Shown: positions 1 to 64,000 of the stretch, in pieces
Layout of the letters: each line of letters opens with the position of its first letter
Position numbering within the stretch: the stretch's first letter is position 1
Origin: Trebouxia sp. TZW2008
Lineage: Eukaryota > Chlorophyta > Trebouxiophyceae > Trebouxiales > Trebouxiaceae
DNA length: 64,000 nucleotides
Direction: 5' to 3'
NCBI GenBank assembly: GCA_002118135.1
Contig: BDIU01000054.1
Span: 1-64,000 of the forward strand
Translations under genes and position numbers: made by a program
Notes under the pieces: generated by a model
Database searches by the model: none
What the model was told of the DNA's origin: nothing
What the model saw: only the letters and a program-made list of their open reading frames with translations

Positions 1-64
1 TTGATATTGTCTGTTGACCCCCCTGTTGGGTCCCAAGGACAGTAAAATTGATTGATTGATTGAC
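1..64 (+). mobile_element. 3' tail of a LINE-like retroelement
   Basis: The first bases end in a short run of TTGA/ATTG repeats preceded by 'ggacagtaaaa'. The LINE remnant at 56860-58738 ends the same way ('ggactgtaaa' followed by a TGAT repeat). I infer this is the extreme 3' end of a related element whose body lies to the left of the window. Only the tail is visible. Confidence 0.4.
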
Positions 65-213
65 TGTATCGATCTTTTCAAAATCTTGTGACCGTTCACC
101 ATGCCAGCTTGTCGAAGCACCTTGCGCTCCCATTCATCTGTTTCGGAAGTGCACACTTCGTTATTGAACCCTTGCGTCTGTACAGTCTGAAGTGCTGTGC
201 TGTTCTGCGCAAC

Positions 214-5342: not shown

Positions 5343-8300
5343 ATGTCGTACAATCAAGAAACCATGTCGTTTGAAGAGCCAGACACCGACTGTGTATACA
5401 TATCGGGTCTGCCGCAAAGCGCGACCGAAGAGCAAATTGCACAGCACTTCGGCTCGATTGGTATCATAAAGCAAGACAAGAAGCTGAAAAAGCCAAAGAT
5501 TTGGCTTTACCGGGACAAAGGCTCCGGCGTCCTGAAAGGCGACGGGACAGTCACGTACGAGGACCCGTTTTCAGCCGCATCTGCAGTGCAGTGGTTTCAC
5601 GGAAAGGACTTTCACGGTAAACAAGCCAAGGCCGTCCATCAAGCGTTGCTCTATCACTGCCTTCCCCCCATGAGTAAAGTCATGTTCCAAGCCCCAAGGC
5701 CCCTTGTGGTAATACCTGCAGGTGCTATCATAGAAGTCAAACTTGCAGATCGCAAGTCCACCAGGTATGAAGGAGGCTACGGCAATGACAGAGGCGGCGG
5801 TGGCAGTGGAGGCTTCTCAAGAGGTGGAGGCGGAGGCGGAGGCGGAGGCTATGGCCGAAGAGGTACTACTCTTACTCTGAACAAAGCATTGGAACTCTCT
5901 CACCAGAGCCTCAGAGCTTGCTTCAAGTCACACTTGCTTTTACACAAGCTTCCCTTGTAGTCTCTGTTTTATCACAATGATGCAAACGGTGTAGAGGTGG
6001 AGGTGGAGGTGGAAATTATGACAGATCAAGAAGTATGCTTGACCTTTATCAGGACTGCTTTGGTCATCATCTGTGCATACTGTGCCCTTACTCAGATTCA
6101 CCATGAAGATTGTGTTTACATCACATTGTCCTCACTCAGATGTACCTCCGCACTCGCACAGCAAAGTTTGAGGCCTAATCCCAGTGTTTTACATCAAGAA
6201 TCATGTTATGTCATGTGTTCTTGTCAGCAGAGATCTTTGTACCACCCTCGTGGTGAACAAAGCATCAAAACCTCCGCACCAAATACAGCCTCAAGGCCTG
6301 TTTAATGTCTGCAGCTTATATCCATTGCCCAAGATATAAACAGCCTGGTGGTGACTCATGCTCTCCTTGCTATTACAACCTTTTTTTATAGTGTCTTGTT
6401 CCTCCATGTGGTGAAAATCACAGCAGGGTGCCCTGCTTGCCCTTGCATAGCATGCCTGCTAAGCGTGTGACTTACACAACTTGTATGTGCTTGACTCCAG
6501 ATGACGGTGGTGGAAGAGGCGGATACGGCGGTGGTGGCGGTGGTCGAGGTGACTTTGGCGGTGGTAGGGGGGGCGGTAGGGGACCCCCAGGCAGGCCTGG
6601 TGACTGGCCATGCCCTAGCTGTGCCAACAACTGCTTCGCCAGCAAGTGCGCATGCAACCAACTCACTTAACATGATGTGCAAGCATGCATCACAATGTAC
6701 TCAATGTCGAAACACGCTGCAAACGTACACAAAGCCTGCATGCACCACTTCTTGGTGACAGTAGGCTTGTGAGCAATGTATTGGCACAGATGGCTATGCA
6801 TGTCGAGACTGGCAGCAGCAACTGAGGAACACAGATTGCCTATGCATGTCTCAATTACCGTTGCCAGTCTTAAACCGATGCATGCCGTGATCTGGCATGT
6901 CTCAGGATTTGCTGCAATGCACAGCTTGAAAGCTGGTTTGGGACTGTAACAGCCCTCAACGCTCATTCTGTTCCTTCACATCTTCAGAGCATCTGATCTT
7001 TAGGCCTAACAAGTGTACTTAGAAGCCAGCCAACGCAAAGAGCCCCATCGTCTGCACACCCACTGTCTGGCACACATGCTGTCTGTCACCCTACAGGAAC
7101 AGGGTGAGGCATTCCCATTACCTACATCGCGTTTGCGTGGGCACAGGTGTCACATCAATCTACCAGTCAGCCAATGCCAAGAGCTGGACCAGCACTGATC
7201 TGCCTTGAACAGCTCCAGCACCAATGTCCATGCATGTGCAATTCTCACGTGACAAATCTTGTGCCATACACACAGCGCATGTGCTAGAAAGTGTAAATAA
7301 AGTTATTATCATCATGTGCAGATCTGCATGCCCAAGATGTGGAACACCCAAACCAGCAGATGCCGGCGGTGGCGGCTATGGCGGCGGCAGTGCCGGCGGT
7401 GGCGGCGGGTATGAAGGCGGAGGAGGGTACGGTGGTGGGGCGGGGGGCGGGGGTGGAGGTCCACCCCGGCCTAAAGAGGCTCGTCCTGGCGATTGGCCAT
7501 GCCCCAACTGTAACAACATATGCTTTGCTAGCAGGTGCAGTCACGCTGACATAAAGCATGTACCCAAACAGTAGTAACATGTGCTTTGACAGCAGATGCA
7601 GTCACACTGACAACAGCGTTTATCCCAACGGTAGTAACATATTCTTTGCCAGCAGCTGCAGTCATATTGACAACAGCGTTTGCCCTAAATGCAGCAATAT
7701 ATGCTTTGCTAGCAGGTGAGGTAAGACTGACAAAAGCACCTGCCACAAGTGTGACAGCATATACTTGCCGGCAGATGCAGCTACGCTGACAAAAGCACTT
7801 GCCTCAAGTGCAACAATCTTTGCTTTGCTAGGCATGGTCACACTAACAAAAGTATCTGCCTCAACTGCAGCAACATATGCTTTGCTAGCAGGTCTAATCA
7901 CTCTAGCAAAAGCACTGGGACATGCTAATGCTTGCAACCTAAGTCAGACAGCATGCATGAATTCAGCAGCTGCTGAAGGATAAGCTCTGTGTCAGCATTG
8001 CATGACGCTCCGTTCAGCAGCTGTAGCAGGGCTACGTAAACTGAAAGGAGGCATTGTGAAAGGTGTTGTTTCACAGGTCCTGTGCTGGTGTGCTGCAGGG
8101 ATAAATGCAACCGGTGTGATACCCCCAAGCCCCCAGGAGCAGGGGGAGGGGGTGGCAGGGGGGGCCGTGTGCAAGCAGCCCCTCAGGGGCCTGCAGGCTT
8201 GTTTGCACCGGAAGATTGGACATGTCCAGGATGCGGAAACCGCAACTGGGCACGACGCAACTCCTGCAATCAGTGCAACACACCAAAGCCCGGCACTGTA

Positions 8301-20000: not shown

Positions 20001-23000
20001 CGGTACGCACATGAAACCCAGAATGTTCTTGTTCTCTTTTGTTTGTGTCGGCTGTCATGACTTCGTACACTTTCCTGTAAAGAAGTCAAGATTACGCCAT
20101 ACTTCTTAGAGAGCTTCAGCGGTGCCATGGTGTACAAATCCATCCTGAATCATCATGTTCGAGTGATGGCGTATCAAAGTTCAGAGTTGTTCATTTGCTC
20201 ATCTGTGGTCTTGTCTGATGATTTTGATGGACAGTCTTTTGTAGTACAAAAACTGCACTCGCGTTTTGGCAGAGGTCAAGATCACTCAGCACTCCTTGGA
20301 AAATGTCAGTGGTGGCTGCGTATGCATAGTCACCTTTAGAAGTTCTCAATCAGTTTGCGCTAAAATGTATGCATGTTTGTGTTCAGCACACGTGTTATCA
20401 CACTGTCATCTGCGTGGGCTGTGTGCTTTGTTCGTTTGTCTTGCTGGACAGTCGCATTTAGTACAAAAATCATCCCTAAGCACTGACAGAAATCAAGATT
20501 AACGGAGCCTTTTCAGTGGTGACTCAGTATGCATGTTAAGTCCATCCTTCATATCTCGCGCAGCAAACGATCAAGTGGAACACACAGCTTGCTCAGTCAT
20601 ATGTATGTCACGTGCTGCTTGCAGCTCAAACGCATGTCAGCTGAGCCGGACTCAAAGCTAGCAAGGCTTCACATATCTTGACACTTGACCCATGTTTGTG
20701 CTGTTGACCCTTGCATGGGTTGTGTTCTTTGACACAGGGATTCTCATCTCCTGGCTCTGACCCCACAACTGCTTGGTGCGCCGCCCAACCTTCTAGTGTG
20801 TCTGGGGATGACCTGGAACAGCAGAGCAAGATGGATATTGGTAGCCCAAAGGGCCAAAGAGGTTTGATACCCTAGTTTATGACCCATATTTGCATGCAGG
20901 TATGGAATGGCGCCCAATCTTCTGGCATGTCTGGGAACCACTTGGAGCAGCACGGCGACAGAGACTGGTGGCCCGAAGGGCCAAAAAAATTTCCTGAAAG
21001 GGTTTCATACCCTAAGCCTCGACCCATGTGCATGTAGGTACGTTTTGCGGCAAGGTCTTTTGGAGTGTCTAGGGACCACCCAGGGCAGCAGAGCAATGGA
21101 TACTGGTGGCCATTTGGGCCTGTATGTCTTTTTCCTTGACATAGTGTTCCAAGACGTCCTAGCTGTCGACCCATGTACATGCAGTTACACTTTGCTGCCA
21201 GGTCTTTTGGGCAGTCTGGGGACGACTTTGGGCAGCAGAGCAGTGAGTACACATGGCCATTTGGGTCAGCCCTCCTGCTGTAGGGTTACCTTACCCTAAC
21301 TCTTGACCCATATGCTTACAGGTACGATTTGCAGCCAGGTCTTTTGGGGTGTCTGGGGACCACCCAGGACAACAGAGCAATGGGTACAGATGGCCATTTG
21401 GGCCTGTGGGTCTGATCACCCCTTTCAACTTTCCCTTAGAGATCCCCGCCCTCCAAGTCATGGGCTCCCTGTTCATGGGCAACAAACCCCTACTGCATGT
21501 CGACCACAGGTAACACACCATGTCTCAGACAGAAAAAGGCCACTATGTGCACATTATGGGTGTTATCACCCCCTTCAACCTCCCCTTAGAGTTTGTATGC
21601 ATGCTGCAGCACTGCGGCATGTCCATATACGGTGCTAATTCCAGCTCTGGCATAAAATGTTGCACACCGACAAATAATGTAACACTTCATCTGCTTTATT
21701 GATACAAGGTGAGCTGAGTGATGGAGATGTTTGTGTGCAGGCAGCATCACTGCAAACATGCTGATGAAGAGTGTAGACTGTTTGAGTCTGCAACAGCTTG
21801 TTTGCATGTTGCCACAGGAATGGTGGTCAAGATGTTTGCACATAGGGTGGCTGCACGTAGGTGCTTGAAGATTTTTTCCAAGTCAGCCAACTGCAAATTT
21901 ATATGTGCTTTTGTGCTCCAGGGTGAGTTTGGTGGTGGAGATGTTTGTACGCATGCTGCATCATTGCGGCATGCCACTGGACGATGTAGATCTAATCCAC
22001 GGCAACGGCAAGGTGGTCGGAGAGATCCTGAAGACCGCTCAAGTCAGGAGTACACTGTTCACTGGAAGTGCAAAGGTGGCAGAGCTCCTAGCAAAGGAGC
22101 TTCAGGGCAAGGTATACTTCTTCTTCTGGTTATTAATCTTTTTCTTTTTGTGCAACAGTGACTTGGTATGATGTTGTGCAAAGGTTGCAGAGCTTTTAGC
22201 AAAGGAGCTTTTGGGCAAGGTGAGCATCTTCTTTCTATCTTTACTGAATTTCTTTTTGCAGATGAAGTTTCAGGGCAGTTTACACCTTTTTGTTGGCAAC
22301 TTTGGCATTTTCAGGCCTGCATCTTGAAGCACCGTTACCTTTTCATTTCAATATCAAAGCAGCGTATTTACTGGAAGTGCAAAGGTGGCAGAGCTTCTGG
22401 CAAAGGAGCTGCAGGGCAAGGTACGTGTTTTCCCCTGCACGTAGCTGTTGTTTGTAGTGTACAACCATTGAAGCGGTCTCTGCTTAGGTAACACAGAGCT
22501 TCTACCTGTTTGTAGAGTACAACATTGAAGCGGTCTCTGCTTAGGTACAGAGTTTCTACCAACAGGAAATGCAGGGTTCATGTGTTCAGCACGTCTAAGG
22601 TTTTGCTCTGCGTTCTGATAGCAGGATAAAATCTCGTTTCAACAATTTAAAGTCCTGCTCCCTTTCTCTGGTCCCTGTTGTCTTTGGAAGACGCTGGTTT
22701 TGACCAGAAACTGTTGGCTCTCGGCTTGACTGTGTATGTATCACTATCAAGGAGTCTTTGCTTAGCATTCCTACATGAGTCAAATGACCCAGTGCGTGCT
22801 GCAGAATGCAAAATCACCAGCTACGAGCACCATCTTTCTCTGCCTTTTCAGGTGTTCTTAGAGGACGCTGGCTTTGACTGGAAGGTGTTGGGCCCTGATG
22901 TGAGCAACATTGACTATGTCTCCTGGGTGTGTGACCAAGATGCCTACGCATGCAGTGGACAGAAGTGCAGTGCCCAGTCTATGCTGTTCGTCCACAAGAA

Positions 23001-32137: not shown

Positions 32138-35100
32138 ATGGACTTGCCGGGACAAGCACAAATTCTTAGGAGCCAAAGGAAGAGAAAGAGAATAAGCTAC
32201 AGGTGCGCTGCAAATGCTCTGCTATACTGCAGCGAGAGCTGTCAAAAATTTGGCTGAAGCGACCAGCAGTCTGCACAGACTTAGGGCTCGTTTATGTGTG
32301 TGCAAAATCGCTCTTGACAGCATTGACCAAAAGCAGTTCAAACTTCTGCATGCATCTAGCTGAGTCGTAAACTTTCCCCATAATGCATGTAGACAACAAT
32401 GACGATGATGATGCCTGTCTGTGTATTGCTGCACAACCAATGTTTGCTGACCTGTGTCAAATTGTGATACAGCGCTGATGGCTTGACAAGCTCGCCATCT
32501 GAGGACAAGGGCCAGGAGAATTTGCTGTCTTTGGCCAAGGGATTCCAGAAGCTTGTGGTGTTCAGCGGCAGTGGTTTGTCTGCTGGCTCAGGTGAGACAA
32601 CTTTTGTCTATTCATTCTTGAAACATGCACAGTAGATGAGTGAGTGATTGACTGAGTGAGTGAGCGAGCGAGTGAGTGAATGAAGGAATGAACAAGTGAA
32701 TGAGTGAATGAATCAGTCTGTTTGCTGCAGGCATGTCCACTTTCAGCACCAAAGGAGGCTTGTATGAGCGCGCACAGAAGCGCTTCAACGTGCCAAACGG
32801 CAAGAAGTTGTTCACCTACAGCTTCTATGAGAAGCGCAAGCTGGAAGCCCTGGTGCGTTTATGCATAATTAAAAGCTGGACACATGGCTTTTATCTTGCA
32901 TGTCTCAAACCCAGAGTTTCTGTGCTTTGTGTGCAGCGGTGTTTTGTTCATGCTGGCCTGGCACACCTGTATGAGCAGTGTTTTGTTTCCATACTGTACC
33001 TACAGGCATTCTTCGCTGACATGCATCAACAGCTTTGCAGTATCAGGCTGTTTCTGCATATACAGCAGACACTCCTTTCATGATGCATATATTGAGGACA
33101 TGTCTTCTGTGTTGCCCAGAGGTAAATCACAGGAGCCTATCTGCATCATGGCAAACATCCATGCACAGACCTGATCACAATGCAGTTCTGACATGTTAAT
33201 GAACATCATGACTGTGATCTCTGTTATGGTTGTCTGTTAATATTGCCGTAGTCACCATCAACAGTGGGTATGTCACCTCATTGCGATACTGCTGTGCAGT
33301 CATGATTTGGCAGACATCTGTAGTGAGGCTTGCAAAGCAAAGCCAGGCTCAGGTCACCAAACCTTAGCACAACTAGCAGACAACAAAAAGCTATTCTGCC
33401 ACCACACCATAATTGTCATGATTACTATCATTGGAAACAACATGCTACTGCTGTTGTAGGCATCTTCTGCAGACATTCAGGCAGAGCGTTTAACCAACGA
33501 TACATGCGCTAAAGTGCGTGCCAAATAAAATCAATTACGTGGCAAATGCCACAATTGCTGCCGTGGTTCTACCTGACCATGCTACAGTAAACTCTCTTTG
33601 TGACGACTGCTTTGGTTACCAAGAAGTGTGTCCCTACATCAAACTGTCTTTACTCAGAGGGACCACTGTAGTCAGAATGCAGCATTGTCCTTATGTTGAG
33701 AGCGTCCTTATATCGAGCGTCCTTATATCAAGAGGTTACTGTACTGCTGTCGTAGGCATTTTTTGCCGACATCTATGCAGAGGCTCGCAAAGCTAAGCCG
33801 GCCTTGGGTCACCGGGCCTTAGCGCAACTGGCAGGCTCCAACAAGCTTCTGCGCCACTACACCATGAACATTGACGGCTTGGCTGAAGCTGCTGGCATGG
33901 ACACCTGGCATGTGGAGAACAACCCCACAGGTTTGCTTCGCTGATATACATGAACATTCGTAGTGGATGCTGGCACGGATCACTTGGCATGTTGACAACT
34001 CAACAGGTATATATGACAAATACCTAGGAATAATGTGTCAAACTTGTTCCATGGACTCCCAACTGAGGAGTAAGAGGCTTAGGCGGTGTGGACATGTCTG
34101 CGGGATGCTAGACACTAGGTTGCCTAAGGTCATGTTGTTTGGTCAATTTAAGGGAGCAGATCCTCCAGGTCCCCCAAGGAACATCTGGAATGAAATTGTT
34201 CTGTCTGACTTTCAACAGTTGGACATCAGGCGTCCATATCGCGACGCTCGAGACAAGCCTGCCTGGCAAGATAGCACTTGTGCCGCACATACCTAGCAGT
34301 ATATGCTGGAATATGTAATCATTATTGTTGTTACCCAGGAATACTGCATGGGCCTATGCAGCTTGCACTTGCCCAAGATGGCATCTGCGTTGTTTGTCTC
34401 ATCTTGCAGAGAAGACTTTGCCTGAGCTTTGCAATGCAGACATCAACAACATTCAGTCATCAGTGCACGCAGGCTAAATCTCAAAACACCACGCAAGCAT
34501 GTCTATGTCCTTACGTCCTTCACTTGTTGACCCTAGTCAAAGCTTTTAATGCCTGCCCACCTGCCCGCCTGCCTGCCTATCTTACTGGCCTCAATTGGCG
34601 TGGTGCCTTGCCTGCAGGCAGGAGTGTTGAGATGCATGGCAACATCAACCAGCTAAGGTGCCTTTCCTGTGGTCATCATGACCCCTGTCTTGCTCAGAAA
34701 GCAGAAACCATTCTCTGCATTGCCTTCTTCTTCTTTGGTTCTTCTTCTTCTTGACTTACTCGTGCCTTGCTTGCAGGCATGACTGTTGAGATGCATGGCA
34801 ACATCAATCAGCTAGTGTGTCCTGCATGTGGAGTTGCGGTCATCATGAACCCTGTCTTGCTCAGGAAGCTGAAAACCACAGCAGCACAGCCTGTACTTTA
34901 CCTCCTCCATCTTCCTCTACCTGGCACAACTCTTCTTCTTGACTTACTGATGCAGTGCCTGCAGGCAGGACTGTTGAGATGCATGGCAACATCAACCAGC
35001 TGGTGTGCCCTTCCTGTGGAGTTGTGGTCATCATGACCCCTGCGTTACTCAGGAAGCTGAGGAGCAAGAAAGCCATCCCATGTTCTAAGTGTGACTGCCC

Positions 35101-41651: not shown

Positions 41652-44600
41652 ATGTCAGGCCGCGGCAAGGGCGACCCCATGGCCGGGCTGCTGAGTAACC
41701 TGGGGGGCATCGATCCTAATCTGTTCAACAAGCCTACGATGGGTCAGCTTAGGAACAAACAGCAGCCGCCCGCTTCAGCCCCGAAGCCTGCTGTCCAAGC
41801 TCCCAGGTCCGATACGATTGCAGCTGTCGGAAGTCCTGCGCGGTCAGACGCAGGTCCTTCCGACAGCTTCTCTTCCCAAAAGGGCAATGCTGCAAAACAT
41901 AACCCTGAGCGCTCGGGCAAGTCTCTGAACGCTCTCGATGCGTCCTGTCATGTTTTACGGCTTTGTCAAGCAGCATCTTCTTGCATTCAGTAACTCTGTC
42001 ACACCTTGTGATGCTGAACCATTTGTATTGCACCTAAGTCAGCAAATTCAAGTCCTTTAGGTCATTGTCTAGTAAACAGTATGTAGCTTACACCTACAGG
42101 TATGATGAGTGATGATCTAGACTCGTTCTTTGGCTCAGCCAAGCCATCAGCAGCTCCAAGCAATGCTGGCTCCTATGCGCCATCCCCTGCAAACATGGCA
42201 TCTCCCGCAGCCAGTCTAGGGCTCCCTGACAGTCAGCAGGACGCTGACTTCTTTGGCAGCTTTGGCAGCCCAGCAGCACAGAGAGCATCAGGCTCTCCAA
42301 GCCGTCATGCTCAGCACCAGCAAGCAGCGATGGACCCGTTTGATCTGTTTGGCGAGGGTGCAACTGTTCTGGCATCAGCAGCAGCTAGCAGCCATCAAGC
42401 AGCTGCCAATCAGCAGGCAGGTGCAGACAATGGTCTGTTTGGCGATGTACAAGGAGCGCAAGGTGAATCACTTCTTTGCATCTTCACTCTGCAGTTGATT
42501 CATGTGGGCCTTCTGCCTACAAAGTCCAATGACTTGTTGCTAAGGCTTGAGACTTGTGCTTGTGTATTGTTTCAGCTGCCACAGCGACTGTGTCAGCGCT
42601 TTTCAGACTGGAAAGCAAGCTCAGGCACATTTATATGTAGGGCAATAGATACGGTGGTGCAAAAGAGCGCAAGACTACCAGGCAGGCATGTTTGCCTGCA
42701 GACCAGACAAGCCCTCCCTTCCAGCAAAGGGCAGCCTCGAAGGGAGCGCCTGGTGCCCAAAGGGCAGACCCAAACCTGAGTTGCTCAACCAGATCATCCC
42801 ATTTTGGACATCACAAAGAAGTGACACATCTAGTGAGTCAGTGGAGACTGAACGTGTCTGATGTGTGCCTGCAGACCAGACGAGTCCTCCCTTGCAGCAA
42901 AGGGCAGCCTCAAAGGGAGTGCCTGATGCCCAATGGGCAGACCTGAACCTGCACTAGTCTTTGAACCAGATCATTCCTTTCGTGACACTCCAAAGAAGCA
43001 ACAACATCTTGTAAGTGAGTCAGGTTTGAACCTGTCTGACAGCCAAGAGTTCATGCTTGCAGATCAGAGTAGCCCTCCCTTGCAGCATCAAAGGGAGCGC
43101 CTGATGCCCAAAGGGAAGATCTGAATCTATACCAGTCTCTGAACCAGCTCGTTTCTTTCGTGACATGCCAAACAAGCAAGAACGTCTTGCAAGTGAGTTT
43201 GGATCAAATCCGTCTGACAGGCAGGCTTGTGTGCCTACAGATCAAAGTAGCCCTCCCTTTCAGCAAAGGGCAGCCTCAAAGGGAGCTCCTGATGCTCAAA
43301 GGGCAGATATGATGCCCAGCAAGTCCCCAAAGTCTGTCAGCAGCTCTGGCCAAGCACCTCCCAGTCAGGTAGTCTCACAAGTCACGCCTTATGTCGCTAT
43401 TGTCCCAATGGCACAGACATAGATGCAACAGATACAGCTTCAGCTACAGACAACAGCAGACCTCATGTTGTCGACACTTGCATGACCCTGGCGCTGGTGC
43501 CATGTCGCAGACATTACCACATCAGGGGAACCTTCACATTGAAGTCTGTAAGGGGCAGAGCTTGCCCCTTGGTGTGTGATGAGGCATGCCCACTGCATGT
43601 GCAACAGTCTTATTGCATTCATTCAGTGTTGATGTATGCTCTTGGCCACAGTCCTGGCTGAGTGCGAGACTCAGCTGGATGTATCTAGGAACAGTGAGCT
43701 GTGTCCAAGCAGGCATGTCTGAGCATAGCATCAGCACACCATCAGTGCAACGCTAATAGACAGGAAGTATGTCTGCAAGCATTGCAGCAGCTGTTTATGA
43801 AGGCAAAAGGTTCTGTTGCAATTCATTTTGCTAAAGCACTGGCTGTGTGCATCAATGACTCAAGCAAGATCAGCAGGCAACAGCAGCTGCCGGCAATTCA
43901 TATTGCACTCACTCACATACTTTGTGCCCTTGCCCACACACAATGCGACCGTTCCTGCTATATTGCATCCTTTCATCATCATTGCGGCATGCTAATGGCA
44001 TCATCATCATCAAGCAAAAAGAAACCATTGTAAACTTTATCCAGGTGACATTTGACACTGCTGTCGTGCAAGTCTCATAGAATCTGACATGAGTGCACGC
44101 TGCTGCTGTAGGGGCGCTCTCAGTTGCCCCGCCGCTCTTCTTCTTTCACATCAGCTGGATCCCCAGACAGCCGCTCATCTGTGCAAGATTCCTTCTTCCA
44201 AGACGGCACACCCGCTACAGACAGACAGGCTGCCAACAGAGGGACCTTCTTTGCAGACACCTCACCTGCTACAGACAGACAGGTAATCCAATATCTTTTT
44301 GCTTGTGGATCCCTACTGATGTCGACGGCAAGTGATTGTGCACCTCAGCTGGTCATGTGGGTGCATCCGAGGCTGTGTGTTGATGGAATTGTGCAGGCGT
44401 CTCCTGTGCTGTCTGCTGTGTTGCTGCTGGCAATGATGCACAGGCACTCATCCCTAGGTGTGTTTGTGAATCAATCTTGTGTTGTTTCTGGAGTCAGATT
44501 CTACTCCCACATTGTTTCTGTCCTTGCTCACAGGCTGGCAACAGAGGCACACCTGGTACAAGCTCAGGCAAACGCAGTTTCACAAGGCAAGGGTCCAACA

Positions 44601-47600
44601 GCAGCCCAGCACCACTGCAGGCGTTCAGGGCTTCACTAATGCTAGCGCATACAACGTTTGTGTCTTTGCTTGCAGGCTGGCAACAGAGGCACACCTGGCA
44701 CTGGCTCAGGCAAAGGCAGTTTCACAAGGCAAGGGTCCAACAGCAGCTTAGACACCACTGCAGGCGTGCAGGGATCGCCTAACACCAGTGCATCGCCAAT
44801 CAACTTGGCAGGGAAAACGGCCCAAAGATCAGGGCTTGGAAAACCCCAGAGAACCCCCTCTCTGCGCAGCAGGTGACATTTCTCTTCTTCTCAGGCACTG
44901 TAGCATGCTCTTCTTCTTTGATGCTGTATGGCATACAGTGTGCTTAATGTGCAACCAGAGTACAAAACTGCTGCCCTAGCATAAACGGCCATAATGTAGT
45001 CTGACCCTCTGTCAGACGAACGCAATTGGGATTGTTGCCTCTTCCGCAGTTGTTTCAGGTGAAAAGTTTGAATTTGAGAGACTTCGTGACACAAAGTGTT
45101 AAGCACATCAATCTTCTGCAGACTGAGCTTGTACTGCCGGGTGCTTTCTGTTACGCTTCCTTCAAAGGTGGCTGCTTGCTCCTGACATGCAGTTTGTTTG
45201 AGTTGCTGATTGAGCACATCAGCCGTGGTGCTGCAGGAGGTCCTCTGAGGAGGGGCAGGGCAGTCACAAGGGCCCTCTGCAAGAAGGCGCTGCGGCAGCT
45301 GACTTTGGGGACCCATACTCTGATCCCTACATGCATGATGACCCCTACATGGCAAGGCTGTCCCTACTTTTTCTCTGTGTTGCAACGTGCATGATAATCC
45401 CTACAAGCCTCTTTTAGGCCAGCCCTGCGCCTTCCCTGCTTCCTACATGCATGATGACCCCTACAGCGTAAGGCCATCCCTACTGCTATCCTGTGCTTCT
45501 ACATGCCTGATGTAGCGTGCTGAGAGCTTGAGTGCCTCGCACATGGCAGGAAATGTCAGATTTCATCTGATGGACTGATTGGCGGCGATGCAGGATGTCG
45601 TTGAGCATGCGGTCTGAACTGCACGGTCATACTTTAGCATAGAACGCAGTCTGTGACATCTGATGAACACTATGTGGCAACACTATCTCTGGATTTGTGG
45701 TCCCTCCATGCTTGTTAGCCTCTGTGCAAGCTTGCACCTAACCTTGTCCATCTGGACCTGGACCCTTGTGCTTCTATAGTGTTAAGCTTTGCGTTTGAGG
45801 CAATGCATAGTTTGGGGCTGGACTTCTTGCACTGTCTGCACAGATGCCTACACATGGACGTCTGCATTGCGCCCTGAGCTGTCCCGGGGCGCCCTGTAGA
45901 CACTCGAAACATCACCTGGATTACTGCCTGTGCATTATCGCTCGTGACCGACAGCAGCAGTGCAACAGACAGCACAGACAGCTTCACTACAATCTCAGAT
46001 GCAAACACCCTCAGATCCACTCAACTCACCAGCTGAGGCGTACATTCGCTCGCGATTTACGTCACAGGGCACAAACAGGCGATGCATAGCATCAGGCAGG
46101 CAGACGCCGCTGCACAGCTCAGCGTCTTTACTTTGAAGCTCAATGCACCAACAGCGACAGTCTGTAGCGCTGTTCAGATCCAATTTGATTTGGTCACCCT
46201 GTAGCTGACTGTAAAGCAGTAGGCAGAGTGGTGGCAGGGCCAGCAGCAGCATCGTGGAGCAGACAGCCAAGCAGTGGCTGGTCTGTGGCCAAAAGTGGCT
46301 GAAGAACATTCTTTTCTGCAATGCATTATGCTGGCCAAAGTACATGATGTATGACAAGTGATCGACTGCACTGCCTGCACCAAATGCATCAAATGTTGAT
46401 ATTGCTTTGACTGTAGAGTGGTGGGCAGAGCGGTGGCAGGGCCAGTAGCAGCAATGTAGAACAGACCGCTAAGCAGTGGCTCACTGGTGGCCAGAAGTGG
46501 CTGAAGAGCGCTGGCAAGAAGCTGGCCACAGCTGCCAAGGAATCTGCCTCAGAGATCCAGAAACGCTTGGAGACTGTTGACATCAAGAAAGGTGGGCCTT
46601 GTTTTTCATGGCTGACCTGCTGCTTTCTTGCCACATAGCAATGTCATGGCTTCTGTGAACTGCTCTTCATCTTTAAAGACTTGTCATCTCATGTCAGCAT
46701 CATGCCATGCCGCGTCATGTGTCATTATTATGTCAGCAGAAACCTTGCTTGTCAATTGCTGATTGCTGAATGATGTGGGCTCCGAAATACGACATGTGAC
46801 AGCAGCTCATCTGAGGCCCAAGTGCCTACTGTTCAATGCAAGGCATTGATGACATCGCAAGGCACAGTGAACGCAGCATATGCAGTTGCAGGGTCTTATG
46901 TTGCCCAAGACAGCATAAAATGTGCTTCTCACATAGGCAAGGGTACTAAGGCAGGCGTTGATGGCGAGGATGCAGCCGCTTACTGCCATCAATCAGCTGC
47001 CAAAAGTCACCATTCTCGACCCGCAAAACATTAGCAACTCAACCATAGCTTGCTTCATCCTAAGTGTGCTTGTTATGTTTGCAGACAAGGGCACTAAGGT
47101 AGATGATGACGGTGAGGAGGTGGTTGCTTACTATCACCAATGAGCCGCCAAATGTTGACATGTTCCAACTTGCAAAACATCCACAATTCAACCATAGCTT
47201 GGCTTCATCCTATCTGCGCTTGCTATTATTGCAGGCAAGGGCACTAAGGTAGGTGATGATGGTGAGGAGGTAGCTGCTTACTATCACCAATGGGCTGCCA
47301 AAATTCAAGATATGAGCCCGGCACGCCAAGCAGATGTCCTTGACCAGCTGGGCGAAGAAGACCGGTTGATAGTGCAGCGCATTCTGGACTCTGCAGCAGT
47401 CAAGCGTAGTAACAGCAGTACAAGGTCAGGATTTAGTCACAGTCCCAGTCAGCACGCCCGGAACCAGCCCGCCAGCCCAACAGGCTCTGATGACTCATTG
47501 CCGCCACCATCATACCAGGAAGCGGCGGGAACTGCGAGGGCGGGAAACTCCCGCCCTTCTGACTCCAGGCCTGCTGTCGCGGGAGACTTGCGCCAATCAG

Positions 47601-50600
47601 CTCAGGGAGATCCATCAAGGTCAAGCAAAGAAAGCGCATCTGCCAGCCGTCATGAGGGGCAGCCAAAAGCAAGAACCGCTGCTGATCTGGGCGTGTTTGG
47701 CGATGCTGAGGATGCTCAGAGCTCAGATTTTGAACAGCCAGAGTATGAGTCAAGGAGCGCAAACTCAAGAGCGGCTGAGTCAGGCTATGCTGAGCCAGCA
47801 AGAGGCGCAGCTGCCACAGCAGCTGTCCAGCAGCCACCACAGAAGCCGCAGCCTGCAGGCAAGCTTGCTGTGCCACTTCATGCCAAATCTCATACCCTCC
47901 CCTTGGTTGCCCTGGGGCCCCTTGCTGGTGCCCTGGGTGCAAAGCCCTCAATTGTGTCATGCACAGCTCACTGTATGTCATGCATGTCTCAAAGCTACAG
48001 CTGATTCACATATCAAATTGCCTCTGCATCAGCAGGCCTGCTGTGATTAGTCATGTGAAAGGATGTTGCTGCAGTGGTAGTTGATGCTTTACCGTTGATC
48101 GTGCTTTCAACAGCTATGCGGCCATGTGATCATGGCTCTGCCACAAAGTCAGGTGAGTGAGACGTGCATGGCTTCAGCCTTGTTCTTAGGCGTCCCGTCA
48201 CAGCCACCTTACAGTGCGTATCAAAAATTGCTGCTGTGCCGCCAGCTATCAAACGCATGATAAGCTAAGCACCCTCCATTGAGTAGCCCCAGTGAGTTTG
48301 TCACAACAGTAGTTTTTGATGTGCCACAAGCATGATCTGTGGTGACTGACAACGGCAAGTCATAGCTGCATCGCAAAGTGTCTAGCATACAACAAAACTA
48401 CTGCAAAGTCTAGGCCCTCGTGCCTGGTTTGTGCTCAAGTTCAGATCTTTTCAGTTAGTCTTGAGGCTTGCCACAATTTGCTCCGTTGTTAGATAGTACT
48501 GCAGTGGGAAAGTATGCTTGAACATTATGCCATGAAATCTGAGCCCATGTGTTATGCTGATTACTGAGTCTTTGCGTACTTGATGCAGTGGCAGCTGAAG
48601 CTGACTTCCTTGGCTTTGGTAATGAGGAAGCAGCTCAGGAAGCATTCATGCCTGACTCACCCCCAGCTGAGTCATCTCAGCGCCCAGGGGGCCAAGCCTT
48701 CCAACCCTCCTACCCCCCACCTCCTGGTTCAAATTCAAATCCAAATTCAAATCAGCAGGCTGCTACTCCAGACGGCCTGGCAGACTTCTTCAGCGCCCCT
48801 TCTGGCCCTTCAGCTTCTTCTTCTGGGGCTTCACACACACCCTCCAGCACTGCCCACATAGATGACATGTTCAGCGCAGGTCCCAAACCAAAGACAGCAG
48901 CTGCTGCAGCAGCTTCCTCTGCTCAGTCATCATCAGTCAATGCACGCAGTCAGGGGGCTCTTAGCTCTTCTTCAGGGGCCGCAGCTGGAGCTAGGGCAAC
49001 TCCAAAAGCTGCCCCAAGGGCTGCTGCTCCAAGTTCCATGATAGATTTTGGAGACGAAGCAGCGCTTCTGGCTGAGCACCCTGACCTTTACAAGGGACTG
49101 GAGGAAGTTCCAGGTAAGCATTCGAGAACTTACTTGCATGGCGTTGCGTGTCTTACGCCAGCATGGCTGTGCTACGCCATGCCACGCCATGCCATGCTGC
49201 GCCATGAGTGCCATGCTATGCTCTGTGCTGAGGTACGTTTTTGAACTCTCTGTTGACTGCCAAGGAGCCAGCATACTGCAAGGGTAGGCGGAGGAGCTGA
49301 GGGGACATGAGCCAGCGTATCCCATGCTGTGCTACGCTGTGCTGTGCTGAGCTGTAATACGCTGTGCTGTGCCATGCTGCGCTGTGCATTTCAAGTCTGG
49401 GTCAACTGCAAGGGCGGCAGAACACCGCTGAAGTAGAAGTTTGAGAGTCATACATCAGCGCATGCAGGAGCAGCCGGCTGAGAAGCAGGCTCATGCTGTG
49501 CCATGTTATGCCTTGTATTCCAAATGCGTATGTGCTGCAGAAAAGGCAGCATACCGCAAGGAGCTGAGGCTGAGTTCAAGAGACATGCATCAGCGCATGC
49601 CGTGCTGTGCTGCGCTACACTGTGCCAGGCTGTGAGGTGCTGTGCTTGAGATTCAAAACTCATGTCGACTGCAGGGGAGCATGCCATGCTGTGCTGTGCC
49701 AGTCTATGCTACGCTGTGGCTTGCATTTCAAACATGTGTTGACTGCAGGGGAGCCAGAATATCGCAAGGAGCTGAGGCAGAAGAGGCTCAGGGACATGCA
49801 TCAGCGCATGCAAGCGCAGCTAGCTGAGAAGCAGGCGCGAGATGCGGCTGAGAGCACTGAAAAAGAAGAGAAGGTGGACTTGCGTGGCAGAGTGGTCAAG
49901 CCTAGGATAGACGCTTGGACCCAAGGAAAGAAGGTGTGTATGATTGCTTTGTTTCCTCAGAAAAGGCCTGATTTCACGATAGTGATGTTATAGCACTGAA
50001 AAGGTAGAGAAGGTGGACTTGCGAGGCAGAGTGGTCAAGCCTAGGATAGACGCTTGGACTCAAGGAAAGAAGGTGTGTGCAGATGCCATCTCGCCTGCTC
50101 AAACATCTTGTTGTTGGTCAGAATGCTGAATGACAGAAGTAGCTCAGGCTGATGATGTGCCTGATGTGCTGATGCTGCCACAGTTCAGCAGCAGCAGCAG
50201 CACCAGCACCAGCATTACCAGCAATAAATACAGACCAGAAGCAAGAAACTTTAGCTTCACCCGGTTGGCTGAAGCAGGAAAGAAATGTTACTCATCTTGT
50301 GCAGGATCACAGCAGAGCCCTATTGAGGGCGTTGATTGCCAGCAAACTGTGACAGCCTCGTTCATCTCCCATGTAGTCTGGCTCACGCTAGCGGAATGCG
50401 AGGAATCCCATAACGTGTGGCTGAGGTTGTGCAGGACAGGAGCGGGGCACTTCTGAGCACGCTGCACACAGTGCTTTGAAGCTCAACTGCAAGCAGTAGC
50501 AGACAAGAATGCAGCAAACTGTTTTGGGCAAAATGGCTCAGCGCTAGAACCTGGACGTTGCTCATGCTGCCATGCCAGTATTCTTGCTTGAAGGAAACAA

Positions 50601-51963
50601 GCACTAAGCGTCAAGTTGCTCTTCCGCCCTGTGCAGGACAACATCAGGGCACTTCTGAGCACGCTGCACACAGTAGTCTGGCTCTACTTAGGGAAACACC
50701 AGCATTGTGTCTTATCAATCTTAGATCAAATTGTATATTCTGTACAGGACAACATCAGGGCACTGCTGAGCACGTTTGTACAGTGGTCTGGCTCTACTTA
50801 GGGAAACACCAGCATGGTGTATTGTCAATCTTAGATCAAATTGTACATTCTGTACAGGACAACATCAGGGCACTGCTGAGCACGCTGCACACAGTGCTAT
50901 GGGAGGGCAGCGGCTGGAAGGCCCCCCAGATGACTGAATCAGACTGAGCTAAATGAATGCATTAGGAGGGAAACACATAGTACCAATGTTTGGCAGGACA
51001 ACATCAGGGCTCTTCTGAGCACAAACATTACCACCAAAAAAAATCGATGGCCTCCTCCATCTCTGCCTTGTACTGAGACGACGTGTGCTGTCTTTGTTGT
51101 GCAGGACAACATCAGGGCACTTCTGAGCACGCTGCACACAGTGCTGTGGGAGGGCAGCGGCTGGAAGGCCCCTCAGATGACTGATCTGGTGGAGGCTGGC
51201 AAAGTGAAGAAGCAGTACATGAAGGCCAATCTCATCATCCATCCTGACAAGGTATATCTTTGTGTCTGTCAGTGAGTGTCAAGATAGCAAAGTGCCTCAG
51301 ACACACGTATCGTATCATAGCATTGTACGGGATGCAGTTCGGGACGTAGGTTTAGGCTTTAGGGTTTGCCTTTGTCTGGGTAAATAAACAAGACCCTAAA
51401 ACCCTCAACCCCACCTCTTTCCGCAATCTCTTGAAATAGACCCCGATTTGATACTTTGATACGATACGCGTGTCTGAGGAGCAAAAAGGCAAAGCTTATG
51501 CCCCTTAGGCATCTTGACGGGAGCTGCTGTCAGTGCAAGCAGTGTTTACAGCCTGTTAGAGTCAACAGCATTCTGTATGCATAGCCAGCATAGCATAGTA
51601 TGTACATGGTAGAGCTGGCAAAGTGACGAAGCAGTTCATGAAGGCCAACCTTATTACTCATCCTGATATTGAATCAGATTTTACAGACATTCATGGGACG
51701 CATCTGCTCAGTAAAGCAATGCGTCGTTCAGTGTGGTCAGTTGTGAGCATGCATGTGTGATGTCAGTTGACCACATTTCAAAATTTATACTTGATCCTGT
51801 GAAGGATCCTGCAGCATGGCTGAAACACTTGTCTGACTGGACGCGTGTCATGCAGGTGAAGCAGAAGGGTGGCACTGTTGAGCAGATTGTCATTGCAGAC
51901 ATGGCATTTGATGTGCTCAAGACTGCCTGGGCTAAATTCGAAAGTGGTGAATTGCGCAAGTAG
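41652..51963 (+). CDS. auxilin-like clathrin-uncoating cofactor with C-terminal J domain
   Basis: Exons: 41652-41853, 42100-42462, 43241-43368, 44112-44282, 44676-44872, 45237-~45340, ~45417-45469, 46417-46591, 47235-~47928, 48589-49113, 49749-49933, 51105-51251, 51856-51963. Phases fit except around 45340 and 47928, where donors are unclear. The long low-complexity N-terminal part has clathrin/adaptor-type DLF/DPF/FG motifs ([32 protein letters not shown]) and many Ser/Gln/Pro. A helical stretch ([20 protein letters not shown]) precedes the J domain: [31 protein letters not shown] with the HPD triad, and [20 protein letters not shown]. From family knowledge it recruits Hsc70 to strip clathrin from vesicles. 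The plant-type layout (no kinase or PTEN part) fits a green lineage. At least seven introns hold junction-copy arrays. Confidence 0.88.
42699..43125 (+). repeat. three acceptor-side copies of auxilin exon 3
   Basis: Copies near 42699, 42876 and 43060 repeat 'CAGACCAGACNAGCCCTCCC', 'TTCCAGCAAAGGGCAGCCTC' and 'AAAGGGAGCGCCTGATGCCC'. Period is about 180 bp; the intact exon starts at 43241. Confidence 0.9.
44532..44645 (+). repeat. one acceptor-side copy of auxilin exon 5
   Basis: 'CACAGGCTGGCAACAGAGGC', 'ACACCTGGTACAAGCTCAGG', 'GTTTCACAAGGCAAGGGTCC' repeat the first ~100 bases of the exon at 44676. Confidence 0.9.
46195..47150 (+). repeat. copies of auxilin exons 8 and 9 starts
   Basis: 46195-46315 duplicates the start of the exon at 46417 (GCAGAGTGGTGGCAGGGCCA, CAGACAGCCAAGCAGTGGCT). 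46937-47010 and 47084-47150 duplicate the start of the exon at 47235 (GGCAAGGGTACTAAGGCAGG, CGCTTACTGCCATCAATCAG), with about 85 bp of intron between units also repeated. Confidence 0.85.
49257..50073 (+). repeat. auxilin coiled-coil exon copies on both sides
   Basis: Acceptor-side copies near 49257, 49405, 49535 and a stub at 49663 repeat 'GACTGCAAGGGAGCCAG', 'GCAAGGAGCTGAGGC', 'GACATGCATCAGCGCATGCA'. GCCATGCTGTGCTACGC-type low-complexity sequence fills the gaps. A donor-side copy at 49990-50073 repeats the exon's last ~80 bases almost exactly, up to AAGAAG|GTGTGT. Confidence 0.85.
50427..51025 (+). repeat. five acceptor-side copies of the auxilin J-domain exon
   Basis: Copies at about 50427-50477, 50632-50680, 50747-50785, 50857-50940 and 50994-51020 repeat 'CAGGACAACATCAGGGCACT' and 'TCTGAGCACGCTGCACACAG'. 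The one at 50857 is open for 27 codons. The intact exon starts at 51105. A donor-side fragment lies at 51608-51670 (GCAGTTCATGAAGGCCAACC). Confidence 0.9.
51295..51479. mobile_element. foldback MITE with 23-bp terminal inverted repeats
   Basis: 51295-51317 (CCTCAGACACACGTATCG...) and 51457-51479 are inverted copies with one mismatch. Inside, a telomere-like pair (GGCTTTAGGGTTT at about 51355 and AAACCCT-type ACCCTAAAACCCT at about 51391) forms a second nested inverted repeat. No coding capacity. Target duplication is not clear. It lies in the last auxilin intron. Confidence 0.75.
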
Positions 51964-59770: not shown

Positions 59771-62700
59771 ACCTTCCTCACCTGAGCTCATGCAACATGG
59801 TCTGCTAAGCTGTCAGGTGTCAGTCAGTAGTCACTCAGAGCTATCAGTCTGAATGCATGCCGTCTGGTGAGAGCCCACATGTTTTGCCTTCTTTCTCCAA
59901 TAACAGATGACACAGCAATCAAGCTGGCAGCTAAGGCGTGAGACCAGCTGGACATAGTCAGCATGACATGGCATAGCTTTGATTTGCAGGATGACAAGAG
60001 ATGTGTCGTGCTTTACACGCCAGCTCAGCAGCAATGATTTCTGCATTGCAAGTCACATGCATGCCAGTCATTGCAAAGAGCCCAAGCAGCCCGCCTGTCA
60101 CTTTCAAATTCCTTGGTTGCGGTGAAACCAGGTCACATGCCAGTTCACACACGCTTCAGCAGTTGCAAAGACTGGGTCTCTTTTTTATCTTTGCAAGATT
60201 GTTGCTAGTATCTAGAATTCCTGAGAAGCTTATCAGCTTAAGAGAGCAATGAGCAGAGCAAACGCATTCTGACAACAACTTGATAGTATAAATCCCTTCT
60301 CAATGTGCAGGGTCTTGGCCGGCCGTGAAGCGGGTGGCCACGCTGCCTGGAGAGTACGTCAGTCCAGCAGCAGCGCTGTGGATTGGAGCCCACATGTGGG
60401 CATTCCTGTCGCCCAACACCTACCACATCTTGCAGTGCCTGGCTGCCAGTGTTCCCGTCATGGCGGGATATGCTCAGACTAAACGTGAAGCAGCCACTGG
60501 CCGGTTAGCATCAGGTGGGTTGTCAGGTTGTGAATGCTGCAGTTGCACCAAAATGCAGTCCTACCACATCTTGCAGTGCTTGGATGCCAGCGTGCCTGTT
60601 ATGGCAGGATATGCTCAGACCAAGCATGCAGGGCAGGGCATCATTGGGCAGCTCAAAGGGTGGCCCATTTGCTGAACGGCCTGCCTGACAAATCCCCCCT
60701 TCAGGGCTTCAGTGAGCGGCTGGAAAGGGTTTCAGTCTCTCAACTTTGTCTGTTGTGTGCAGGAGAGGCAACTGAGGCTGCCTTTAGGGCAAGGCACAGA
60801 TGGGCAGCTCGCAGGGTGGCCCATTTGCTGAACGGCCTGCCTGACAAACCACCCCTTCAGGGCTTCAGTGAGCTGTTGGAAAGCGTTTCGGTCAACGTGG
60901 GGCTCAAAGTTCACGGGCAGCCCTTCTTGGGAAGCACTACAGATTTGGTGACAGCATATGGTAATCCTGCAGGTGAGTCTATTTATGTTCTGTGATGTGC
61001 CTTTGTCAACTGAACGGCCTGCCTGACAAACCGCCTCTTCAGGGCTTCAGTGAGCTGTGAACAGCAGCTGTAAGATCCTGTAATGGTGTTGTCATCACTA
61101 CTGTAACAATGCATCTGTACTGTAGGGACCAGCCATGTTGTCAATGCTTCAGTACCACTGAGGAGGCGTAAGGAGGGGCCTGACCCCAACCGCCCTGCCC
61201 AGCCCCCTGCATGTACTGTAGATGCACTGTAAGCACTCTGTAACAGTACACTAGGACAGTAACAATGCTTTGTACTGTAGGGGCCAGCTATGTCGTCAAT
61301 GCTTCAGTGCCAATCAGAAGGCGTGAGAAGGGGCCTGACCCCAACCCCCCTGCCCCGGCCCCCTCTATGGCAACCCCCAGAAAGGCTGAGGCTCGACCTC
61401 AAGACGCCATCACTGCTGGTAAGAAAGCATCTCATTCAGTCAAGCATGAAATGTTTTCGCTGGGCAGATGTCGAGACCCAGCCACCAGGCAAGTACAGGC
61501 GCATTCAGCTGTTCCCTGCAAGTCTGTTTGAAGCTGTATGAAGAAACCGGCTTCAACCTCAAAGTCCCATTTGCAGGTGAGCCCTCACATCAGAGTTGCC
61601 AATTGTGCACGAGCAGGCAGGCCTTGTCAATAAGCAGGGCAGCCTGAAGTAGCAAACCCTGAGCTTGCACCAAGCACATGGAGCTGCTTTCAGAGTCCAC
61701 AACACTGCTTGTGCATTGCTGCTCTAGACGTAGCTGCAATGTGGCTGACACAGCATATATTACGCTTGCAATCTGCAGGTGCGAATAGTGGCATTTTCAC
61801 CTTTTTCAGCATAGCTGAGCTCCTGCTAAGCTCAGCAGATCATTTTCCCTAACACAAGTCAAACTAAGCTAGCACATTGCACAAACAGCTGCAATGCAGC
61901 ATACGTAGCCTATATGTCATGGCACTTGACAGTTGACTCGTATCTGCAGGTGCTGATGGTGGTGCTTTCACCTGTTACAACACAGCAAAATTGCTAGGGG
62001 CATCGAGCAATCTGCCAGCACAAGTCAAGCTGAGCTAGCATCCTGCACAGGCAGCAGTCACACAGGGGCATGTTGTGAGACTTGATCATTCTGCAGGTGC
62101 AGATGGTGGTGCTTCCACCTCTTGCAACACAGCAAAACTGCTAGGGGCATCAAGCAATTTGCCAACCATCACAAGTCAAGCTGAGCTAGCACCTCTGACA
62201 GGTAGGCATCTCACAGCCTGTATGTGATGACACTTGAACACTTGATCAATTTGCAGGTGCAGATGGTGGTGCTTCCACTTCTTACAACACAGCAGACTTG
62301 GTGGGCGCATCAGGCAATTTGCCAACCATCACAAGTCAAGCTGAGTTAGCGCCTAGCACAGGCAGCAGTACCAGCAGCATTGACCCCCTAGGCAGTGAGC
62401 CAAGCACCCCCCACCATCAACCCCCTACCTTTGAGAACATGCATCAGCATCAGGTGAGCATTCACTAGCCTTTTCATGACTTCAAATCATCATCATCACA
62501 CTCGTTCACCATCAAAGGCATCACCAAAAAAGGCGCATGCAGCAGCACTGACCCTCTATTGCAGCTCTGTTGCAGCGAATCCAGCAATCCTCACCGTCAC
62601 TCCCCCGTTTCTGAGAACACGACCAGCATCAAATCAGCATTCAGCTGCCTTTGCGCGACTTTAGTCATCGTCAAACGCATTACCAGACTAGCTATAGGCA

Positions 62701-64000
62701 GCAGCGCTAGCAGCACTGACCCCATGTACAGTGAACCGAGCAACCCCCTCCACCACCCCTGCCTTCTGAGAACACGCATCAACTTCAAATCAGCATGCGC
62801 ATGTCATTGCATGATCTCATCAAGCATCCAAGGTATTGCATGATTTCACCCAGGGTTAAAGACTTTGCATGCTTTTCCCTTGCTCTGTCTTGACAGCAAG
62901 GAACAGCTATTCTATGCTGCACAGAACCTGGGCCATGCAATTTTAGCACCTGTGCCAGCGTGTGAGAGCTATCATTATCAATGCTATTGCAACCATTTTC
63001 GATGGTCTTCGCAACATAATCAGTATCACCAGTACATTTACTGTGCATGTTGTGCGTTCCAGGCGTCAAGTGGCAGTACTATCACAGACAGTCCTGCCAC
63101 CAGCACGTCATGGGCTGACTCAGGGCTCCCAGCCTCTGAGCACCGAGTCGGCAAGCGCATTGCTGAGCTCCAGAACCAGACTCAGCAGGATGAGTCAGGC
63201 AGAGAAGAAGACAGCAGCCAAACGAGCCTGATGGGTGCTGCTGGTACAATGCTGTTGAGTGAGGTGCCCTTGGGGGGTGAGGGGGGGTCTCAGGGGGCAT
63301 CAGCACCCCTGCCCTCCTCTGAGGTCCAACTGACTGATGGCAGCACCGTCAGCATCACTGGGAATGTGAGTGCAAGGGTCTGCTTGTACTAAGCTGAATG
63401 CGTACTTTATTCATAAATCTCTCCTGGATTACATACATATCCTGTTTGTGGACATGTACACATGCGCATGTTGATTCACACAGTCGCATGTGACTGTCAC
63501 ACAGCAGCCAATGTGTCTGCACTGCTTGCATGGAAAGGGGAGCAAGGACCGCAATTACAATGGGCAATGCGGCAAGCATGTTACATTTGTGCACTTAAAA
63601 AGGTACACATGGGACGGTGCAAAAATGCATGCATGCAGGATGCAAATGAGGCAGCAGCCCCACTGTCCCGCCATGGCAACTAATTCCACTTCAACTTGAG
63701 CACCAATTCGTCTATGCGCAATTGACTTGTTTAGTTATTTTTTTATACAAGCGTGTGTGCAAAACATAGCTCCACTGTCTGTATAACTTGTTATATGTAC
63801 TTTTGTGGACGTATGACCTGTACGCTGATCTGTTCATGCGTTTATCTTTGCAAGACGTCTGGTCTTTGAGAGTGTGCGCAGCATGCACATGTCCATTGTC
63901 TGTGCATGCGTGCAGGATGCAAATGAAGAAGCGGCTCCATTGTTTGGTCGTGGCGATCATGCAGCACGGGAGCAAGCGCTGACAGTGCGTGACAGATGCG
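59140..64000 (+). CDS. unrecognised multi-exon gene, runs off the right edge
   Basis: Phase-consistent exons: 59140-59370, 60311-60514, 60763-60972, 61281-61418, 61468-61576 (contains a frame problem), 62257-62453, 63063-63365, 63916 to beyond 64000. Segments include KGSTGPLVALGAVSLVGQAA, KRVATLPGEYVSPAAALWIG, SPNTYHILQCLAASVPVMAG, RWAARRVAHLLNGLPDKPPL, VNASVPIRRREKGPDPNPPA, PPGKYRRIQLFPASLF, KRIAELQNQTQQDESGREED, then Ser/Gly/Pro-rich sequence and DANEEAAPLFGRGDHAAREQ at the edge. No family recognised. The first exon needs an upstream phase-1 partner, possibly the exons from 55132, with the LINE then lying in an intron. Exon 61468-61576 is 1 base out of frame. Confidence 0.6.
60540..61225 (+). 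repeat. copies of neighbouring exons, one chimeric
   Basis: 60545-60715 joins a copy of the exon 60311-60514 end (TACCACATCTTGCAGTGCTT) directly to a copy of the middle of exon 60763-60972 (TGGCCCATTTGCTGAACGGC). A further stub of the latter lies at 61012-61055. 61125-61225 is a copy of the exon at 61281 that lost its donor. Confidence 0.8.
61770..63690 (+). repeat. arrays around exon 62257 and before exon 63916
   Basis: Acceptor-side copies at about 61779, 61948 and 62094 repeat 'GCAGGTGCAGATGGTGGTGC', 'TTCCACCTCTTGCAACACAG', 'ACAAGTCAAGCTGAGCTAGC' (period about 155 bp). Donor-side copies lie at 62540-62640 and 62700-62800 (AGCAGCACTGACCC, TTCTGAGAACACGMATCA). A copy of the 63916 exon start lies at 63632-63683. 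Confidence 0.85.

Follow-up and report, generated by a model that had tools for sequence, protein, structure and literature searches.

Sense-strand copies of exon edges within the adjoining introns of Trebouxia sp. TZW2008, and a proposed course of intron growth

Exon-edge copies in the window and in the sampled genome

The stretch of DNA analysed here (the window, 64,000 nucleotides (nt) in length) corresponds to the first 64 kb of contig C53 (BDIU01000054.1) of Trebouxia sp. TZW2008, in an assembly of 68.5 Mb and 527 contigs; it is nuclear, because it contains genes with spliceosomal introns. Its recognisable genes encode an ALDH12-type aldehyde dehydrogenase (ALDH12/P5CDH, matching 6d97 at E=1e-121), an auxilin-like J-domain protein (matching 3ag7 at E=1e-21), a SIR2 protein (Pfam SIR2 at 1.7e-13), a JmjC protein, an RRM plus RanBP-type zinc-finger protein and a reverse transcriptase. 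An earlier note on this DNA described introns that carry direct, decaying copies of the edge of the adjacent exon, and attributed them to tandem duplications straddling the splice sites. The pattern is confirmed as real and is found across the sampled genome, mostly as first described, with a departure in where the copied blocks end.

Eight window introns with exons backed by outside proteins were picked by hand and searched, within the introns only, and copies of an adjacent edge are present in seven of them. There are 28 such copies, 12 on the donor side and 16 on the acceptor side, with an exon-side score below 25 in five of the 28; no exon-edge copies were found in the 139-nt SIR2 intron. 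The direct, same-strand orientation is borne out by BLAST of the window against itself, in which 143 of the repeat pairs are same-strand (135 of them no more than 1 kb apart) and 14 are inverted (2 within 1 kb). Across the window and 60 further loci (349,537 bases) the pairs within 1 kb number 520 direct and 6 inverted, in a count where one array can give several pairs.

The survey outside the window drew on five Pfam families (TCP1, Aldedh, tRNA-synt_1, kinesin and HSP70), whose exons were mapped genome-wide by homology; the 60 loci were then retrieved, and 277 of the 303 match rows were used. The 217 neighbouring exon pairs gave in-frame splice sites for 146 introns, and after three introns with weak sites were dropped the sample consists of 143 introns in 54 genes, all placed by protein homology and with a clear splice consensus (donor CAG|GTAAGY, acceptor TGCAG|G). 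An in-house gene finder called too many exons and joined separate genes together, and was used for candidate exons only; it mistook some exon-edge copies for exons, and gene finders in general are likely to do the same.

With 50-nt exon edges and an alignment score of at least 18, the adjacent edge recurs in 36 of the 143 introns: the end of the upstream exon in 23, the start of the downstream exon in 24, and both in 11. Reverse-complemented edges recur in 0/143 introns on each side. The rule of sides proposed in the earlier note, by which a copy keeps to the side of the edge it matches, holds up in these introns outside the window, since the wrong edges of the same exons match in 1/142 and 2/143 cases (together 3/285) and the right edges in 47/286; the window search itself is no test of it. 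Edges of other genes match in 1/2,860 and 2/2,860 sampled comparisons (together 3/5,720), so that neither other genes nor wrong exon edges are matched equally often, a comparison that the note had itself set. Copies are carried by none of the 33 introns shorter than 280 nt and by 19 of the 25 introns of 650 nt or more. A clear example lies on contig C150, where the start of an HSP70 exon matches twice (profile positions 132–167 and 131–168) just upstream of the full exon (131–205). A looser search, with a score of 16 and with all copies discarded other than those reaching to about 8 nt from the junction, finds 43 copies on the donor side (23 introns) and 54 on the acceptor side (30 introns), for a total of 41 introns spread over 24 of the 54 genes. 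The pattern is not confined to the window.

Table 1. Exon-edge copies and related features of the window (all positions are those of the window).
Feature	Position	Strand	Copies and remarks
RRM plus zinc-finger gene, array	7500..7914	+	about 6.6 units of 60 nt; exon end + GTGCAG, by eye
ALDH12/P5CDH intron	22112..22851	+	donor copies with junction at 22220 (internal, flank shared) and 22421 (terminal, flank unshared); weak acceptor copy 22678
ALDH12 exon	22852..23014	+	3′ edge (up to 74 nt) + donor copied downstream
ALDH12 intron, 2005 nt	23015..25019	+	donor-edge copies 23154, 23248, 23342, 23554, 23766; acceptor-edge copies 24849, 24645, 24485, and a weak one 23948
ALDH12 intron	25518..26161	+	acceptor-edge copies 26034, 25892, 25778
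ALDH12 intron	26334..26925	+	donor-edge copies 26438, 26550, 26666
SIR2 gene intron	32853..33755	+	acceptor-edge copies 33460 (weak), 33301
Auxilin-like gene, abutting tandem duplication	44509..44793	+	142 nt, 84.6% over 143 nt; includes acceptor motif; plain straddling type
Auxilin-like gene, real exon end	49853..49939	+	81 nt exon + GTGTGT
Young copy of 49853–49939	49992..50078	+	95.4%; homology ends at donor +6; 52-nt spacer between
Auxilin-like intron, 1171 nt	49934..51104	+	one donor-edge copy; acceptor-edge copies 50858, 50748, 50637, 50435, and weak ones 50997, 50305
Auxilin J-domain exon, intact	51105..51251	+	5′ edge from about acceptor −7 copied upstream
Last auxilin-like intron	51252..51855	+	donor-edge copy 51671

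The window also contains further repeats. Large local direct-repeat arrays, which may be of exon-edge or of intergenic origin, lie outside the assigned genes at 13617–14094, 14692–15288, 18657–19158, 19276–20533 and 20782–21413, and an open frame of 372 amino acids rich in Gln and Ala (38113–39231) is partly made up of tandem repeats whose periods are divisible by three. A dispersed repeat has related stretches 15–21 kb apart (17911–18086, 33574–33682, 36258–36424, and 13378–13478 with 34196–34298). The reverse transcriptase domain (RVT_1, 1.1e-28) lies in an open reading frame at 56969–58165 that resembles a long interspersed nuclear element by impression. Outside the window, an intron piece of locus L036 (contig C489, 8358–8398) matches the end of a dispersed repeat found in at least 18 other places, on both strands and mostly over about 41 nt.

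Ends of the copied blocks and organisation of the arrays

A search of each intron with as much as 200 nt from either flanking exon found 99 exon-derived blocks, of which 91 end within 12 nt of the junction, where uniform placement expects 20%. Copies of exon interiors, whose near end is over 12 nt away from the junction, are accordingly scarce (8/99), and the far ends of the blocks lie 32–146 nt inside the exon. The arrays take the form copy, spacer, copy, spacer, real exon, such that the deepest (terminal) copy faces unrelated intron, and the step between copies averages 153 nt (standard deviation 44).

The intron side of the copies behaves differently in terminal and internal positions. The 60 nt beyond the real junction were compared with the 60 nt beyond each copy having an exon score of at least 25, with mismatched genes as the null, and an intron flank common to both is seen in 27 of the 40 internal copies, those nearer the exon, and in 9 of the 42 terminal copies (Fisher p=4.6e-5). 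The claim that each duplication straddles a splice site finds no support in that form, since 33 of the 42 deepest copies show no intron part (two of them share it in shifted form). The same comparison in the window finds a common flank for 6 of the 23 copies with an exon-side score of at least 25, and the six acceptor-edge copies of the 1171-nt auxilin intron match the real exon for as much as 104 nt but on the intron side for only 7–24 nt. In young pairs inspected by eye the homology ends at donor +3, +4, +5, +7 or +8, or at acceptor −5, −7, −10, −17 or −20, and some older terminal donor copies end at or just short of the junction. The copied intron part of the earlier description is thus often very short (donor +3 to +8, acceptor −5 to −20 in the young pairs), the nearer-exon copies of arrays excepted.

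Simple decay of the flank is rejected by a simulation using each copy's own divergence and assumed indel rates, in which about 34 of the 42 terminal flanks would be detectable if originally present. Among the 31 terminal copies with divergence of at most 0.2 the mean detection power is 0.92 and the flank is seen in seven, and among the ten terminal copies of lowest neutral divergence (≤0.10), with power of at least 0.97, it is absent from nine (one of these nine, copy A55, shares a shifted flank). Displacement of the flank by a later insertion is likewise rejected: it is present elsewhere in the intron for only 3 of the 33 flankless terminal copies, and in two of these, A55 and A82, it adjoins the copy with a small shift, for which reason they count as sharing the flank. 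An origin of the terminal copies from diverged alleles or hybrids, suggested by a match of the exon part without the flank, was also rejected, given their neutral drift and the presence of young copies (divergence 0.014–0.07) that are also flankless.

The spacers of 82 copies have a median length of 62 nt (10–90%, 28–118; range 19–283). Of the exon-edge pairs with at least 80% identity, 7 of 37 have a gap of 10 nt or less and the other 30 have gaps of 31–139 nt; at 90% identity or more, seven of eight pairs have a spacer of 31–111 nt. One 111-nt spacer was searched across the assembly and no other match was found. Repeat pairs with at least 80% identity comprise 37 at exon edges, 2 internal to introns, 5 between exons and 37 unassigned, a ratio of exon-edge to intron-internal pairs that overstates the preference because intron-internal pairs lose identity faster, both of their copies being free to drift.

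Intron length and the fate of the copies

Introns with copies have a median length of 644 nt compared to 334 nt for those without (p=1e-12), and intron length is fitted by 363 + 132 nt × copies (r=0.69), with a gain of roughly 120–150 nt per copy, in agreement with the earlier proposal that introns lengthen as copies accumulate. Introns with at least one detected copy make up 44% of the sampled intron bases. Length alone is no proof of growth because longer introns have more room for copies; the near-zero controls argue against chance matches.

The copies have drifted neutrally, as non-coding DNA. In the 33 flankless terminal copies the mismatches at codon positions 1, 2 and 3 are 114/783, 110/793 and 191/785, so that 46% of the mismatches fall at position 3, and 26 of 28 gaps shift the frame. 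Copies range from near-identical to barely recognisable, and a wide span of ages is supported. That the messenger RNA would be left unchanged agrees with the protein alignments.

The inner splice sites appear to have been tolerated. The inner GT is kept in 31/43 copies and the inner AG in 41/54, no less than the 0.667 and 0.657 predicted from the identity of the flanking sequence; in the copies that share intron flank the GT is kept in 18/20 and the AG in 22/25. Use of the inner sites would leave an open frame in only 10 of 97 cases. That these sites have not been selectively destroyed suggests exon definition, and the simplest account may be that pairing by the spliceosome is across the exon, with preference for whichever site is closest to the body of the exon. 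The real sites of copy-bearing introns are of normal strength (donor 8.12 bits, baseline 7.51; acceptor 8.83, baseline 9.04), and the inner sites are weaker (donor 1.71 and acceptor 4.89 bits), as decay alone would make them.

Intron interiors contain TGCAG at 5.4-fold the number expected from base composition (142 vs 26.2), and the donor motif CAGGT at just 1.26-fold. In the copy-free intron interiors of the 143-intron sample, TGCAG, CTGCA, TGCTG and CAGCA are each present at 5–7 times the base-composition expectation.

Origin of the copies and comparison with known systems

We consider, with modest confidence, that the best explanation is growth of introns in two stages. In the first, a local DNA copying error would place an exon edge, copied in sense orientation and mostly comprising 30–110 nt of exon with roughly the splice motif added, in the adjoining intron, with a spacer (median as above) before the real site; the anatomy is that described above, and the likeliest cause would be template switching during repair or replication. 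Because terminal copies are mostly without intron flank, the founding event looks like the copying of an exon edge with little beyond the splice motif, and the array anatomy suggests that later copies are multiplications of copy plus spacer. In this second stage the exon-edge blocks would serve as direct repeats, from which unequal exchange or slippage multiplies the unit. Persistence would follow from the pairing of sites across the exon, the inner copies being ignored and left to drift. The excess of TGCAG makes short-match template switching plausible at acceptors, and we tentatively suggest that the splice motif, or similar TGCAG-type sequence, could be the short match used for rejoining. 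A bolder form of the idea, that a mutational process recognises splice junctions, duplicates the exon edge into the adjacent intron as far as the bound splice site extends and is a leading source of long introns, is conceivable and we hold it to be doubtful; if true, it would tie splicing or nascent RNA to DNA duplication.

Several observations weigh against the two-stage reading. The first copy has a length effect of 148 ± 34 nt, greater than the copied block alone (about 85 nt), which hints that the spacer may be new too. The branch-like motif YTVAY precedes 11 of 18 inner acceptor copies, compared to a baseline of 62/102 and 140/390 at random (for the stricter CTRAY, 4/18, 27/102 and 48/390), and such a likeness to intron ends, on this one motif, upstream of inner acceptors is not predicted by insertion of a bare exon edge. 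The spacer may be the native intron end with the copy inserted beyond it, for which the normal strength of the real sites counts, or it may be newly made, for which the first-copy length effect and YTVAY count. Several older terminal acceptor copies keep partial homology to about −25, a softer limit than in the young pairs. When exon maps are disregarded and all 186 independent local direct-repeat blocks of the 60 loci are taken, a splice motif of at least 5 bits in both copies lies at the expected end in only 50 (antisense, 16/183). At 5 bits the acceptor end shows no enrichment (14%, interior control 14.9%), and the donor end a twofold one (15% vs 7.5%); at 7 bits both ends exceed the control, with 11 and 10 of 186 vs 1.7% and 2.5%. 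In the window the corresponding blocks number 14/61 on the plus strand and 10/61 on the minus strand. This unselected test supports the reading weakly: either many local repeats have ends away from splice motifs, or the exons they come from have not been mapped, and with only 50 of the 186 blocks splice-bounded generic local duplication therefore occurs too.

The mechanism of the earlier note, plain tandem duplication straddling the junction throughout (units of exon end with intron start, or of intron end with exon start, repeated head to tail), accounts readily for the direct orientation of the repeats and their closeness to the source, for the scarcity of exon-interior copies and for abutting pairs such as that at 44509–44793. 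It also fits the internal copies, two thirds of which have the flank and which plain duplication of a copy-plus-spacer unit fits as well, together with the nine terminal copies that share it. It fails for most founding copies, for which it is disfavoured by the missing flanks that simulation leads one to expect, by the rarity of head-to-tail abutment and by the spacers in nearly all of the most similar pairs, and we think it unlikely as the general account. Alternatively, local duplicative insertion could be generic, with selection purging complete second splice signals so that only motif-cut edges are left. Local direct duplication is indeed general here, and a homologous branch-site region is absent from many terminal acceptor copies, but copies of exon interiors should on this account be harmless and yet are scarce, and where the flank is present the inner sites are mostly intact, and thus tolerated, which counts against a purge; we regard this explanation as quite unlikely.

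Copying bounded by RNA or the spliceosome, with nascent RNA or an RNA:DNA hybrid as template and with ends that U1 (donor) and U2AF (acceptor) would fix, has the attraction that the limits of the young pairs are of similar size to the footprints of U1 and U2AF. Inserted cDNA should land in both orientations, however, and no reverse-complemented edges were seen in the 143 introns. Of 75 exons just one is shorter than 90 nt and so informative on copying across exon–exon junctions, and the single match that crosses such a junction (score 18) followed the genomic and not the spliced sequence. We judge this improbable. Transposable introns (introners) or other mobile elements are brought to mind by the reverse transcriptase gene in the window and by the dispersed repeat end of about 41 nt in one tested intron flank, and are nonetheless very improbable as the source, since the copies match only the edge of their own gene in the sampled cross-gene comparisons and the single spacer tested is single-copy. 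An assembly artefact, or conserved alternative exons, we give almost no credence: the copies have diverged from the real edge by a few per cent up to about 30%, with frameshifts and some stops, the codon-position pattern is near that expected when a neutral copy is set against a constrained exon, and the reading frame that functional alternative exons would need is not kept.

The origin of long introns is usually attributed to transposons. In this genome the edges of single-copy exons appear to be an important source of them, with intermediates visible in the 24 genes noted above, so that genes would gain length with no change needed in the messenger RNA. Intron growth, the choice among near-identical splice sites and any link between splicing and DNA duplication thus become testable in one organism.

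Comparison with known systems reveals both likenesses and differences. Intron creation by tandem genomic duplication has reportedly been described by Rogers (in 1989), Gao and Lynch (2009) and Hellsten and colleagues (2011), and shares with the present pattern a local direct duplication that includes splice motifs and lengthens the gene with the mRNA unchanged. In that system an exonic AGGT unit gives a new intron that starts with a copy of the downstream exon and ends with a copy of the upstream exon, whereas in the present case it is existing introns that become longer, and copies keep to the side of the edge from which they derive; copies of the upstream edge, as read from their listed positions, sit past their own donor and run into further intron. 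Short tandem duplications arising from patch-type break repair, said to have been reported by Vaughn and Bennetzen (2014) and by Schiml and colleagues (2016), are also direct duplications of about 50–200 nt, possibly with filler between the copies, and would double the stretch between staggered nicks; the copy–spacer–copy anatomy would agree with such filler. They are not known to stop at splice sites, unlike the exon-derived blocks here, nearly all of which abut the junction. Introner elements, which are reportedly the subject of studies by Worden (2009), Huff (2016) and Gozashti (2022), similarly bring about large-scale change of introns inside one genome, but no element common to genes emerges here from the few cross-gene edge matches or from the one spacer searched genome-wide; the one flank piece so searched holds the dispersed repeat end noted above. 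Lastly, the later stages resemble intronic minisatellites in being tandem arrays that vary in copy number, and differ from them in that the unit is founded by the edge of a protein-coding exon together with its splice motif.

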